DNA from: a virus
Virus record (IMG/VR): IMGVR_UViG_3300005663_000125
Location: 1-36,877 of that record
Strand: one strand, 5' to 3'
Length of the DNA: 36,877 nt
Shown: in pieces, positions 5,251 to 14,064 of the stretch
Position numbering within the stretch: position 1 is the stretch's first letter
Layout: every line of letters starts with the position of its first letter
Position numbers and translations under genes: made by a program
Notes under the pieces: generated by a model
The model's database searches: none
Told to the model about the DNA's origin: nothing
What the model saw: only the letters and a program-made list of their open reading frames with translations

Positions 5251-5448
5251 ATGCTTGTTATAGGCAGACGCGAAGGCGAAGAAATTCGCATCGGCGATGA
5301 TATAGTAATTAAATTCATCGGTTTTTACCGAGGGAGAAAGGCTATTCAAGTAGGCATAACTGCCCCCAGAGAGATTCCCGTACACCGTCAGGAAGTCTGG
5401 GAAGCTATACAGGCTGAAAAAAAGGCAAGCAATGAGCAAAGGAGTTGA
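5251..5448 (+). CDS. csrA: CsrA-family RNA-binding regulator
   Basis: It encodes 65 residues, the usual size. MLVIGRREGEEIRIGDDIVI, then GITAPREIPVHRQEV and a terminal helix EAIQAEKK match CsrA throughout, including the key Arg of VHR (residue 46, Arg44 in Escherichia coli). The loop after strand 3 (FYRGRKAIQV) is about two residues longer than in E. coli. CsrA dimers bind GGA motifs in mRNA leaders and block or change translation. A phage copy could redirect host or phage mRNAs. AAAGGAG lies 7 bases before the ATG. Confidence 0.93.
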   Translation: MLVIGRREGEEIRIGDDIVIKFIGFYRGRKAIQVGITAPREIPVHRQEVWEAIQAEKKASNEQRS

Positions 5449-5756: not shown

Positions 5757-6310
5757 AAGTAATTTTAGATCTGTGTGCCGGGACTGGCGCATGGTCAAAG
5801 CCCTATGCCGACGCTGGTTACGATGTGAGGCTTATTACATTGCCGGAATGGGATGTAAACAATTACGACACGAGACTATTGCTTGCCGCGACGAAACCAT
5901 ACGGGATACTGGCAGCCCCACCTTGCACTATGTTCAGCCTTGCCAGGCAAAACGCAAAGACGCCCCGTGATTTACGGTCAGCTATGTATGTTGTCAGGTC
6001 TTGTATGGAAATAATTTGGGAATGTCGATGCGAACACCAGCTTATATTCTGGGCTCTCGAAAACCCAACAGGGTACTTACGACAGTTTTTGGGAAAGCCG
6101 GCATTTACTTTCAAGCCTTGTGACTTCGGCGACCCAATGGCAAAAAGAACCGACTTGTGGGGTTATTATAATTTTCCAAAAAAACAGAAAAGCCCTGCGG
6201 TAGTTCCAATCGGCCATCATCGCAATTCGGCCAACTATCCACGAAATCCCGTTAAGCGTGCTATAACCCCACCGGGCTTCGCCAAGGCTTTTTTTGAGGC
6301 TAACAGATGA
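5738..6310 (+). CDS. Compact DNA cytosine-5 methyltransferase
   Basis: It encodes 190 residues. Motif I is DLCAGTGAW (11-19, SAM binding), motif IV is PPCT (61-64, with the catalytic Cys), motif VI is ENP (108-110), and DFGDPMAKRTDLW (129-141) matches the segment before the target-recognition part in phage enzymes. It is much shorter than Dcm-type enzymes (over 300 residues), so the target domain is minimal or partnered. It would methylate cytosine at C5 in DNA, probably against host restriction. A 24-bp direct repeat covers its start and the start of the next gene. Confidence 0.78.
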   Translation: MSKEFDKVILDLCAGTGAWSKPYADAGYDVRLITLPEWDVNNYDTRLLLAATKPYGILAAPPCTMFSLARQNAKTPRDLRSAMYVVRSCMEIIWECRCEHQLIFWALENPTGYLRQFLGKPAFTFKPCDFGDPMAKRTDLWGYYNFPKKQKSPAVVPIGHHRNSANYPRNPVKRAITPPGFAKAFFEANR

Positions 6311-6325
6311 GCAAGGAATTTGACA
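6302..6325 (+). repeat. 24-bp direct repeat, copy 2
   Basis: Identical to 5733-5756. It covers the start of the N4/N6 methyltransferase, so both methyltransferases begin with MSKEFD. The two copies flank the cytosine methyltransferase gene exactly. Confidence 0.85.
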
Positions 6326-8025
6326 GCCAGGTGAATACTATCATCTGCGGTGACTGTCTGGAAGTAATGAAGGATTGGCCAGATGGGGTTATCGACTGTT
6401 GTGTAACAAGCCCACCTTACTGGGGCTTGCGTGATTACGGCGTAGCCGGTCAACTTGGCCTTGAGAAGTCGCTGGAAGAATATGTTGTTAAAATGATCGA
6501 GGTTTTCCGTGAGGTCAGGCGGGTACTCAAGCCGGAAGGTACGCTGTTTTTGAACCTCGGAGACTCTTATTTTGGAGGAGGGCGTGGCGGTGGCGGCTCT
6601 TTTTCCTCTGAGCGACCCGGCTGGCGTGAAATCCCTTGTGGCACTTCCGGCAAAGAACCTGCAAATTCTCAAGGTCGTGATTGTCTTTGCGAAAATCTTT
6701 GTGATGCGTGTCGGCTGGTTTATCAGAGCCACAGACTTCGCAATGATGGTTTGCTCGTTGCCATGCTATCTGCTTCACTTTCCTTGCCCATCCCGGAGCG
6801 TAAGGAATCTGGGAACGGCCATTCTCCCACATTGGATTTTTCTGTCCTGGAGAACCACATTTTAGCCGCCATTCAGCATTTTGGGAATTATCAATCCCTC
6901 GCTGACGAGCAGCTTCTCTCATTGCGGGAGTCCATGCCTGACGAATTTTCTCGGCAACTTCTGGACGGTTGCTGGCAGAGGGGTAGTGTTTCTTCTTGCC
7001 TTTTGTGCGGTCGCTCATCAGCTTCTTATGCTCCGGCGTCCGAACATAAGACGGTTTGCACCTGCGGCACTGAAGAGAACGGCCATCCATCAGGCTATTA
7101 CAAGTCGGACATTGCTTCTTTGCGTAAGGCATACCCACATTATACCATAACGCACCCTGCGAGTCAAACATTAAAACCTAAAGACCTATGCGGCATACCA
7201 TGGCGCGTAGCCTTCGCTCTGCAAGCCGACGGCTGGTGGCTAAGGCAGGACATTATCTGGCACAAGCCAAACCCCATGCCGGAAAGCGTTACCGACCGAT
7301 GCACTAAGGCGCACGAATATCTTTTCCTGCTGACCAAGAGTCCTCGTTATTTTTATGATGCTGATGCGATAAGAGAGCCAATACAATTATCACCCGAAGC
7401 GTATAAACGTAAATATAAGATGAAGAATCCAACAGCGAAGGGTAGTGCATTAGAATCTGGTGCGGGGTCAAAGAAAGATGGGTTCAATAAATATCTTGTG
7501 GGTAAGGAAATATATGTACCCAGTGGCCGCAACAAGCGCTCCGTCTGGACGGTAGCCACAGCCCCCTACTCCGACGCCCACTTCGCCACGTTCCCGCCTA
7601 AGCTGATTGAGCCTTGTATTAAGGTGGGCTGTCCGAAGCAGATATGTAAAAAGTGCGGGGAGCCGAGGCGGAGGATTATCGAGAACCAAAGCAGTAAGCG
7701 GTATGCCACAGGCAAGTCTGAAACTAAAAACAAAGCGGGGCTTGTTACTGCGTTTTCTGGTTACGAAGACGGGTCATCATGCCCTGTTCATATTACTACC
7801 GGCTGGACCGACTGTGGCTGTGGTGAAGGCTTTAGTCCGGGCATAGTGCTTGATCCCTTTGGTGGCGTTGCTACGACCGCCCTTGTAGCCTATAAGAACC
7901 TGTGTGACTATGTAATGATCGAATTAAGCCCCGAATATGCAAAGATGGGCAAATTACGACTTAAAAAGGAAAAAGACAATTTTGGTTTATTTGAAAATAA
8001 TACTTGTCAAGCTGGCACTATTTGA
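6307..8025 (+). CDS. Beta-class DNA N4/N6 methyltransferase with Cys-rich insert
   Basis: It encodes 572 residues. Motif IV TSPPYW is at 34-39 and motif I DPFGGVATT at 516-524; this IV-to-I order defines beta-class amino-methyltransferases. The segments NLGDSY (83-88), LKPKDL (289-294), then GIPWRVAFALQADGW and IIWHKPNPMPESV are typical of phage and bacterial enzymes that methylate adenine N6 or cytosine N4. Between residues about 90 and 285 lies an extra region with cysteines at 126, 128, 132, 135, 231 and 234 that short homologues lack. This insert coincides with an HNH gene on the opposite strand. The target sequence cannot be predicted. Confidence 0.85.
   Translation: MSKEFDSQVNTIICGDCLEVMKDWPDGVIDCCVTSPPYWGLRDYGVAGQLGLEKSLEEYVVKMIEVFREVRRVLKPEGTLFLNLGDSYFGGGRGGGGSFSSERPGWREIPCGTSGKEPANSQGRDCLCENLCDACRLVYQSHRLRNDGLLVAMLSASLSLPIPERKESGNGHSPTLDFSVLENHILAAIQHFGNYQSLADEQLLSLRESMPDEFSRQLLDGCWQRGSVSSCLLCGRSSASYAPASEHKTVCTCGTEENGHPSGYYKSDIASLRKAYPHYTITHPASQTLKPKDLCGIPWRVAFALQADGWWLRQDIIWHKPNPMPESVTDRCTKAHEYLFLLTKSPRYFYDADAIREPIQLSPEAYKRKYKMKNPTAKGSALESGAGSKKDGFNKYLVGKEIYVPSGRNKRSVWTVATAPYSDAHFATFPPKLIEPCIKVGCPKQICKKCGEPRRRIIENQSSKRYATGKSETKNKAGLVTAFSGYEDGSSCPVHITTGWTDCGCGEGFSPGIVLDPFGGVATTALVAYKNLCDYVMIELSPEYAKMGKLRLKKEKDNFGLFENNTCQAGTI
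6527..7132 (-). CDS. HNH homing-type endonuclease, antisense inside the methyltransferase
   Basis: It encodes 201 residues from ATG 7132 (214 if ATG 7171 is used). It has a zinc ribbon (C8, C11, C22, C25: CPTC and CRRC), a NUMOD3-like Lys/Arg/Ser-rich stretch, the segment GQKNPMWENG often seen before HNH domains, then a full HNH core: CEVC (131-134), THH (142-144), DLENLQVLCRKCH (153-165) and a later His169. This is far too regular to be a shadow of the other strand. HNH proteins nick or cut DNA and often spread their own gene. The whole gene lies within methyltransferase codons 74-276, on the other strand. Confidence 0.82.
   Translation of the reverse strand: MPYAKKQCPTCNSLMDGRSLQCRRCKPSYVRTPEHKKLMSDRTKGKKKHYPSASNRPEVAEKIRQAWTPAMREAARQRGIDNSQNAEWRLKCGSPGQKNPMWENGRSQIPYAPGWARKVKQIAWQRANHHCEVCGSDKPADTHHKDFRKDNHDLENLQVLCRKCHKGFHASRVAQRKKSRHRHALLQNKSLRGSKTAYLPA
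7139..7167 (-). promoter_or_regulatory. Sigma70-like promoter for the antisense HNH gene
   Basis: On the minus strand, TTGACT (7167-7162) and TATAAT (7144-7139) are separated by exactly 17 bases. Transcription would begin near 7132, which is the ATG of the HNH gene, so the message would be leaderless or nearly so. The match is 11 of 12 consensus bases. Confidence 0.6.
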
Positions 8026-12743: not shown

Positions 12744-13229
12744 ATGAAGTACAAAAGGATTTGTAGATGGAAAAGAAAACCTGTTGGCGCTCCAGATGCT
12801 GATGTTGCGATTAAGTACATTGAGGGCATCAAGAGAAAACGTGGTGGTATTACGCCCAAATTGCTTGTTATGGAGGCAAAGACCAAAAAATCCCCTCTGC
12901 ATGATTGTTTCGAGTGGAACAATAACAAGGCAGCCAAAGAATACCGCGAGATACAGGCCCGCAGGATTCTCCGGTTTTTGGTAATCTCTGAGATAGAGGA
13001 CGACGAAGAACCGGAAAGTTTTGTTCGGGCTTTTGTTGCTGCGAGTGAAATTACGGAAAATGAAAAAAGTAGCCGCTATTTGACAATTAAAGAAATAAGG
13101 GACGACGAAGATTTGGATAAGCAGTACAAAGAACAATTGTTATCCGAGTTGTATGAGATTAACCACAGGATAAAGGCTTATGATGAGTTTAGCTTGGTTG
13201 TCCATGCGATCGAACGAGTGAAGATTTGA
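12744..13229 (+). CDS. Conserved phage protein of unknown function
   Basis: It encodes 161 residues. The text LVMEAKTKKSPLHDCFEW, then NKAAKEYREIQARRILR, VRAFVAA and a terminal helix with EINHRIKAYDEF is a pattern I recall from many phages and prophages (SPLHxxFEWD, AAxxYRxxQARxLI). The function is not known. It is strongly basic at the start. AAAGGAGTAAC precedes the ATG. It ends just before the GTC array. Confidence 0.65.
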   Translation: MKYKRICRWKRKPVGAPDADVAIKYIEGIKRKRGGITPKLLVMEAKTKKSPLHDCFEWNNNKAAKEYREIQARRILRFLVISEIEDDEEPESFVRAFVAASEITENEKSSRYLTIKEIRDDEDLDKQYKEQLLSELYEINHRIKAYDEFSLVVHAIERVKI

Positions 13230-13230
13230 C

Positions 13231-13348
13231 AAGTCAGGTCAAGTCCAGTCGTGTCTTGTCTTGTCGAGTCATGTCTTGTCAGTCGCGTCAGGTCCGGTCG
13301 AGTCGAGTCAAGTCGTGTCAAGTCGTGTCGAGTCGTGTCAGTCATGTC
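13231..13348 (+). repeat. GTC pentamer array (24 GTC triplets)
   Basis: GTC occurs 24 times in 118 bases: 22 units of the form NNGTC and two of the form NGTC (13281-13284 and 13340-13343). The two spacer bases vary (AA, GA, GT, TT and others); only GTC and the 5-bp step are kept. Near the end it settles into 10-bp units such as AAGTCGTGTC (twice) and GAGTCGTGTC. It lies in the leader of the gene at 13387 and is not coding, since a 5-base step shifts frame at every unit. Confidence 0.95.
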
Positions 13349-13386
13349 ATGTAAGTTAAATAAATTTTTAAGAAAAGGAGCAAAAA

Positions 13387-14064
13387 ATGGCAAAGAAAAC
13401 AGAAGTAAAAGAAGGTAAGGTAATTGTAATACCGGCAATAGAAAAAAAGATCGCTCGTGTTCGTATTATTGGGGAAACTCCCATAATAATGCACCGTTTT
13501 TCAGAGAAGATACAAAAGGAGATATTAAAAGGAATGACAGGGAGCGCAAAGAAAAAGAAACCGCCCAAAGATCCCGAACAGGAATACAGGGACAGTATGT
13601 ACTGGTTGGATAAAGAAGGTTTTATGATGTTACCTAATGGTGATCCATTAAAGCATAAAACTGGTTTTGGTATGCCGTCGAGGGCATTCAAGAAGGCAAT
13701 GGTTTCTGCGTGTCGGAGTATTGACGGCGTCGATATGACCTTAGCTCGCAACGCTTTTTTTATTATGAGTGAGTTTACTCCTCTACTTAACCATAATTTC
13801 AAGACTTTTGCAAAACCTCGCAGGCGAACTGAGCCGTTACGATTGCCGAACAGGAATACTATGGATATTCGCAGTCGTGGTGAGTTTCTTAGTTGGGCGG
13901 CGATACTGGTAATTGAATATAACGCCAACATCATTAGTCTTGAGCAGATAGTGAATTTAGTAAATGTCGCAGGTTTTGGTGTCGGTGTAGGAGAAGACAG
14001 ACCGGACAAGACCGGTGGAATACAAGGTAGGTTTGAGGTAGCTGGAATCAGCAAAGTAGCTTAA
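13387..14064 (+). CDS. Phage protein with RAMP-like glycine-rich end, unknown function
   Basis: It encodes 225 residues. ARVRIIGETPIIMHRFSEK (23-41) matches a phage family I recall by its TPxIMHRFSEK motif. The C-terminal segment FGVGVGEDRPDKTGG followed by GRFEV resembles the glycine-rich loop of RAMP/Cas7-type RNA-binding folds. Between them are Lys-rich and Arg-rich patches. A nucleic-acid-binding role is inference. It has a good AAAAGGAG site, its leader contains the GTC array, and it is the last plus-strand gene before transcription reverses. No cas genes or CRISPR array are present. Confidence 0.6.
   Translation: MAKKTEVKEGKVIVIPAIEKKIARVRIIGETPIIMHRFSEKIQKEILKGMTGSAKKKKPPKDPEQEYRDSMYWLDKEGFMMLPNGDPLKHKTGFGMPSRAFKKAMVSACRSIDGVDMTLARNAFFIMSEFTPLLNHNFKTFAKPRRRTEPLRLPNRNTMDIRSRGEFLSWAAILVIEYNANIISLEQIVNLVNVAGFGVGVGEDRPDKTGGIQGRFEVAGISKVA

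Follow-up and report, generated by a model that had tools for sequence, protein, structure and literature searches.

The window analysed here, a stretch of 36,877 nucleotides from an uncultivated phage (IMG/VR record IMGVR_UViG_3300005663_000125), carries on its plus strand an intergenic array of GTC triplets between a small accessory gene and a RAMP protein gene. Both genes and the array recall VIPR, a system described in a 2026 preprint (PMC13142463). As reported there, VIPR is a CRISPR-like phage system whose RAMP protein and vrRNAs are aimed at competing elements. Its minimal locus comprises vipr and an accessory vap gene, and its carriers are mostly viral or proviral. The vrRNA alternates GGY "or a related consensus" with NN over 9–16 pentanucleotide repeats, in which the hypervariable NN alone reads DNA with a one-base skip, and ends in an invariable, structured 3′ tail (PMC13142463). 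The features of the window locus are as follows.

12744–13229, + strand: vap-like accessory gene, 161 aa; phrog_15946, E 6.6e-18; adjoins vipr
13230–13281, + strand: predicted vrRNA guide block 1; (AA) AG AA CA GT TT TT GA AT TT between GTC triplets; closed by an A-slip at 13281
13282–13340, + strand: predicted vrRNA guide block 2; GC AG CG GA GA AA GT AA GT GA GT between GTC triplets; closed by an A-slip at 13340
13341–13386, + strand: array end and vipr leader; GTC-AT-GTC-ATG, then A/T-rich sequence and the Shine-Dalgarno sequence of vipr, AAAAGGAG
13387–14064, + strand: vipr; RAMP protein, 225 aa; phrog_4652; C-terminal glycine loop G-V-G-E-x-R-P...G-R-F

By direct reading, 13233–13348 (+) holds 24 GTC triplets; 21 of the steps between them measure 5 bp and the remaining two 4 bp, with starts at 13233, 13238 and onward to 13278 (10 units), from 13282 to 13337 (12 units), and at 13341 and 13346. 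Both 4-bp slips read GTC-A-GTC and are spaced 12 steps apart, and four units read GAGTC. The initial annotation had described the same 24 triplets, two one-base slips and four GAGTC units, and our reading agrees: the pattern (GTCNN)4GTC matches 14 times in the window, always inside the array, and never in 100 dinucleotide-preserving shuffles, and the reversed control pattern has no match in the window. The array starts directly after the stop codon (13227–13229) of the accessory ORF, and 38 bp separate its end from the ATG at 13387. Its spacer dinucleotides are degenerate, the best period-5 consensus matching only 73%; the array is not a microsatellite. The slips set off one block of 10 triplets and another of 12, both within the published range of 9–16 repeats, and the true RNA ends may differ from these limits; the probable content of the window is two guides of about 10 dinucleotides each. 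Searches of the window recognised no 3′ tail, promoter or terminator, the 3′ end of the array has no stable structure beyond that of shuffles, and Rfam returned no family in the window or in nine array loci (L004 and L110 included). The array end parallels, by sequence reading, the GGCAGGCATGGC motif of Gordonia and Mycobacterium phage arrays, and 13341–13386 is a possible candidate for a 3′ tail.

Elsewhere in the window, a major head protein, a tail tube and other virion genes identify the carrier as viral. A CsrA-like regulator lies at 5251–5448 (+; Pfam CsrA, E 3e-18; phrog_9500). In the DNA methyltransferase ORF at 6307–8025 (+; N6_N4_Mtase, phrog_67), the two matched parts are separated by an insert that, read from the other strand, forms a 214-aa HNH endonuclease ORF (6527–7171, −; Pfam HNH; phrog_8446, E 1.7e-11), both strands being open throughout the insert.

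Vipr and its accessory protein

The assignment of the 13387–14064 product to the Vipr family is supported by its family profile, which matches PDB chain 36pp_D, "SUSP1 Vipr protein" (E 2.5e-15), and the SUSP1 gene product (E 3e-15). The single window sequence has no significant PDB chain match and, in its one comparison with the SUSP1 protein, reaches 23% identity (E 4e-5). A Foldseek search with the AlphaFold model (pLDDT 89.7, pTM 0.84) gave Csm3/Cas7-type subunits, namely Csm3 of type III CRISPR complexes, as the best PDB matches (E 2.5e-5). PADLOC has no model for Vipr or the accessory protein at a threshold of 0.001; the accessory protein has a weak match there to UzuA (E 0.018).

The accessory gene belongs to family phrog_15946, to which no numbered vap of the preprint was matched (PMC13142463). 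Its product is homologous to the vipr neighbour in L216 (2e-13), to Mycobacterium phage Brocalys gp46 (9e-18) and to Gordonia phage UmaThurman gp41 (4e-14). Homologues lie close to a vipr in 17 of 17 cases in a first set of loci, and a phrog_15946 gene stands beside vipr in 71 of 75 protein-anchored relatives. The fold is predicted confidently (pLDDT 90) and has no significant PDB structure match; its weak matches include winged-helix proteins.

The VIPR locus of Escherichia phage SUSP1 (type II; PMC13142463; PDB 36pp) resembles that of the window in its homologous RAMP protein, its adjoining accessory gene and its intergenic pentanucleotide arrays of fixed triplet and free NN on the vipr strand. 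The window differs in a GUC rather than GGY scaffold, in an accessory protein with no detectable similarity to the one beside vipr in SUSP1, in an array placed upstream of vipr and between both genes, and in that no pseudoknot tail was recognised. The same pair of vipr and phrog_15946 genes as in the window is found in Mycobacterium phage Brocalys, Gordonia phages UmaThurman and ODay, and IMG/VR loci L216, L562, L608 and L624, where the arrays likewise have an A-slip every 10–12 units; scaffolds in this group are GGY or mixed G(G/U)Y, whereas the window has GUC throughout. Class 1 CRISPR backbones (Csm3, Cas7) share with the window protein the fold and, presumably, assembly into a filament on guide RNA, but their guides pair contiguously, with every sixth base flipped. 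The window itself contains no CRISPR array with direct repeats and spacers, the repeat unit being 5 bp, and no other cas genes.

Arrays and vipr genes in other genomes

IMG/VR, where a scan for (GTCNN)8 returned at least 119 stretches, holds at least 146 degenerate chains of this pattern (spacer entropy at least 1.8 bits), against 4 among the 106 stretches found with the reversed control (CTGNN)8. Among the matches listed, about two thirds of the GTC chains are degenerate and a sizeable minority are simple repeats. Given this proportion and only four such control chains, arrays that keep the triplet and leave the spacers free are a real class. The earlier view that GTC and its step are kept by selection while the dinucleotides vary is upheld. 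In many contigs, consecutive intergenic gaps each carry such arrays.

Which gene accompanies these arrays in other phages was a question left by the initial annotation, and a locus survey with an iterated profile seeded with the window protein 13387–14064 supplied an answer. Among the matches listed, relatives of this protein are present in 49 of 64 degenerate-array loci and in none of 55 simple-repeat loci (Fisher p 2e-20; 50 of 65 degenerate-array loci with the window included). GTDB genomes, a second collection, yielded four relatives, all on contigs with high-entropy arrays.

Among the stretches examined, no vipr was detected beside the degenerate arrays of L014, L018, L021, L035, L047, L061, L075, L076, L081 and L100; L036 and L109 are array stretches without vipr, yet vipr lies on other stretches of the same contigs. 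Some of these vipr-less stretches are short, so that vipr may be located beyond them; alternatively, a more distant RAMP may be the partner. On the bacterial MAG contig of L352 (Gemmatales MAG KatS3mg105), about 350 GTC units fill consecutive arrays at about 4.8–6.6 kb, with frequent GTC-A-GTC slips, adjoining both a vap-like gene and a vipr matched at E 9e-40; this may be either a very large guide store or a set of staggered guides. The period-5 array of L215 (3606–3705), which accompanies a divergent vipr and vap, has a fixed part that looks like (A/G)CA, not GNY. In L004, L015, L044, L105 and L110 a constant sequence of ~35 nt stands between arrays (for example, GTGTTTATCACTCAGACAAGGAGGCTGTTTTTCCT in L004), and these sequences are probably vrRNA tails or processing sites.

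A protein-anchored scan collected 80 loci with 75 distinct Viprs. Strict arrays of at least 8 units occur in 43 of these 75 relatives and always on the vipr strand; the scaffold is GGY in 42 and GTC in a single one (L551, on the same contig as L097). Under a relaxed rule, G(G/T)(C/T) with one missing unit allowed, 75 loci have arrays. The initial annotation had named array-less relatives with the same flanking genes as the contrary case; none was seen, nearly all such relatives carrying an array. The order vap–array–vipr of the window recurs in L562, and vipr comes first in the other 75 loci with both genes. In most relatives the arrays follow vipr, frequently with vap in between, and many arrays occur at some loci.

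The slip anatomy of the window is common to 112 arrays of relatives. In 421 four-nucleotide slips of relatives' arrays the slip letter is A in 79% of cases, A making up 32% of NN letters, and slip spacing peaks at 10–12 units. We infer that the A-slips probably mark boundaries between tandem guides. L113 and L116 provide a direct view of guide turnover: their Viprs are 96.5% identical and their flanks and downstream sequence nearly so, yet the guide directly after vipr is wholly different, with scaffold and tail (AAGAC, TTTTGGTGGC...) kept. A wholesale guide swap within a kept scaffold is the behaviour expected of programmable guides, not of a microsatellite.

A probable guide template and competing explanations

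Like published VIPR loci, the window has a Vipr homologue, a triplet/NN array, repeat blocks within the range of 9–16, an adjacent vap-like gene and a viral carrier. Judged by sequence, it belongs to this known system as a variant with a GUC scaffold, GUC fitting the published wording only as "a related consensus"; the variant may already be listed elsewhere in the preprint (PMC13142463). In all likelihood, the array templates one vrRNA guide, or more probably two, in a phage VIPR locus of the order vap–vrRNA array–vipr, and the variable NN dinucleotides are most likely guide information rather than neutral filler.

For the expression, loading, pairing code and biological role of the window guides we follow the preprint by analogy (PMC13142463). 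The guide RNA would be read from the plus (vipr) strand as (GUC NN)n, and copies of the 13387 RAMP protein would be arranged along it at intervals of five nucleotides, each gripping a GUC and leaving NN unbound. According to the published rule, NN would pair with a double-stranded DNA target as NN-x-NN-x, the skipped base often falling on a codon wobble position, and the guide complex would keep a competing phage or mobile element from being transcribed. The GTC-A-GTC slips would separate tandem guides of about 10 repeats. The initial annotation had proposed a protein stepping five bases at a time, with the RAMP-like gene as partner; we take both points as right. It had overlooked that NN are most likely guide letters and that the slips recur as probable boundary marks.

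A different role for the same protein would be autoregulation, the array serving as an RNA-binding track in the vipr leader through which Vipr controls its own translation, with meaningless NN. The model for such control is TRAP, a protein multimer that recognises (G/U)AG-NN repeats at a 5-nt step with uninformative spacers; triplet-NN layout and step are alike in the two cases, whereas the fold of TRAP is unrelated to that of the window Vipr. The position of the array in the leader, directly before the Shine-Dalgarno sequence, and the RNA-binding nature of the RAMP fold agree with this explanation, but the mostly downstream position of relatives' arrays, often behind vap, and the loci with many arrays do not. 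Free NN would also leave the regular boundary slips and the wholesale guide replacement between L113 and L116 unexplained, and we consider autoregulation as the sole function improbable; a regulatory side role besides the guide role is possible.

Still less probable is a decayed or neutral microsatellite produced by slippage. Pentanucleotide tandem arrays do arise in this way, and simple repeats make up a sizeable minority of the listed IMG/VR (GTCNN)8 chains; here, however, 24 of 24 triplets are intact amid near-random spacers, degenerate chains number at least 146 for GTC and 4 for the control triplet, and the arrays are tightly linked to one protein family. The slippage origin entertained in the initial annotation is further contradicted by guides replaced wholesale in near-identical phages (L113/L116) with the scaffold kept. 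We give equally little credence to a double-stranded DNA site, be it operator, centromere or origin, whose binding protein advances by half a helical turn. Such a site would be compatible with the occurrence of both GTC and GAC arrays relative to the gene, and GC skew turns near 14 kb; that turn, however, coincides with the switch in gene direction at ~14 kb, relatives' GGY arrays keep to the vipr strand, and GAC loci keep their 3′ repeats and tail on that strand. No evidence was found for the replication origin, nucleosome-like site or GANTC methyltransferase link that had also been suggested.

Read as guides under the one-base-skip rule, the array gives AA-AG-AA-CA-GT-TT-TT-GA-AT-TT and GC-AG-CG-GA-GA-AA-GT-AA-GT-GA-GT, whose predicted sites would be AANAGNAANCANGTNTTNTTNGANATNTT and GCNAGNCGNGANGANAANGTNAANGTNGANGT. 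The full 11-unit window guide pattern had no hit in GTDB genomes; four 8-unit IMG/VR scans gave 9–99 hits each, with neighbouring units matching at chance level; and 60 guides (at least 10 NN) compared with 2.9 Mb of DNA at skips of 0–3 showed no excess of matches. A codon-phase test of the NN letters of GTC/GAC guides scored 26.8, where pseudo-guides gave 27.4 ± 5.6 at skip 1, −12 at skip 0, −8 at skip 2 and −3 at skip 3. The score is strong against simple nulls, and shuffling letters among guides within a locus was as high in 56 of 500 trials; since these shuffles remove little of it, composition alone could explain the fit to skip 1.

Scaffold dialects and residue R164

On the vipr strand the scaffold is GGY, GUC or GAC. 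GGY arrays lie on this strand, as do the constant 3′ repeats and tails of GAC loci, and terminator-like sequences, recognised by eye, end some array groups on it (L002, L004, L049). The arrays of L608 and L624 mix GGC, GGT, GTC and GTT and so link GUC with GGY. A tree of 53 Viprs, with several long branches and some uncertain joins, requires 10 changes of dialect label, against a shuffled mean of 19.0. Sister pairs of differing dialect include L097 (GUC) with L216 (GGY) and L217 (GGY) with L025 (GUC); L352 (GUC) is placed beside L073 and L082 (GAC), and GAC proteins occupy three places. In these sequence comparisons, GUC and GAC emerge as minority dialects with repeated origin.

The alignment column of window residue R164 is arginine in 6 of 6 GGY proteins, 80 of 80 protein-anchored relatives and 11 of 14 GUC proteins (the exceptions being M in L352 and F in L033 and L067), and in 0 of 29 GAC proteins; it is the best of the columns scanned and partly follows phylogeny. 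We propose, as a hypothesis from the alignment, that R164 may read the middle scaffold base. A broader proposal is offered only tentatively, as one we find rather doubtful: that VIPR dialects (GGY, GUC, GAC and perhaps RCA in L215) are interchangeable and have switched about 10 times among related Viprs, with R164 alone reading the middle base, arginine going with G or U and never with A.

As a class of RNA-guided system VIPR is only months old, and its code is noncontiguous; the window locus is an example from an uncultivated phage, and its scaffold is not GGY. Across the comparative set of more than 120 loci the scaffold changes while the architecture stays, and this variation gives direct access to the way in which Vipr recognises its guide. 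A degenerate (GNY-NN)n array beside a RAMP gene is a simple signature for finding such loci in raw DNA. If the broader proposal is true, the dialects would be orthogonal guide systems, which may coexist in one cell or exclude each other.
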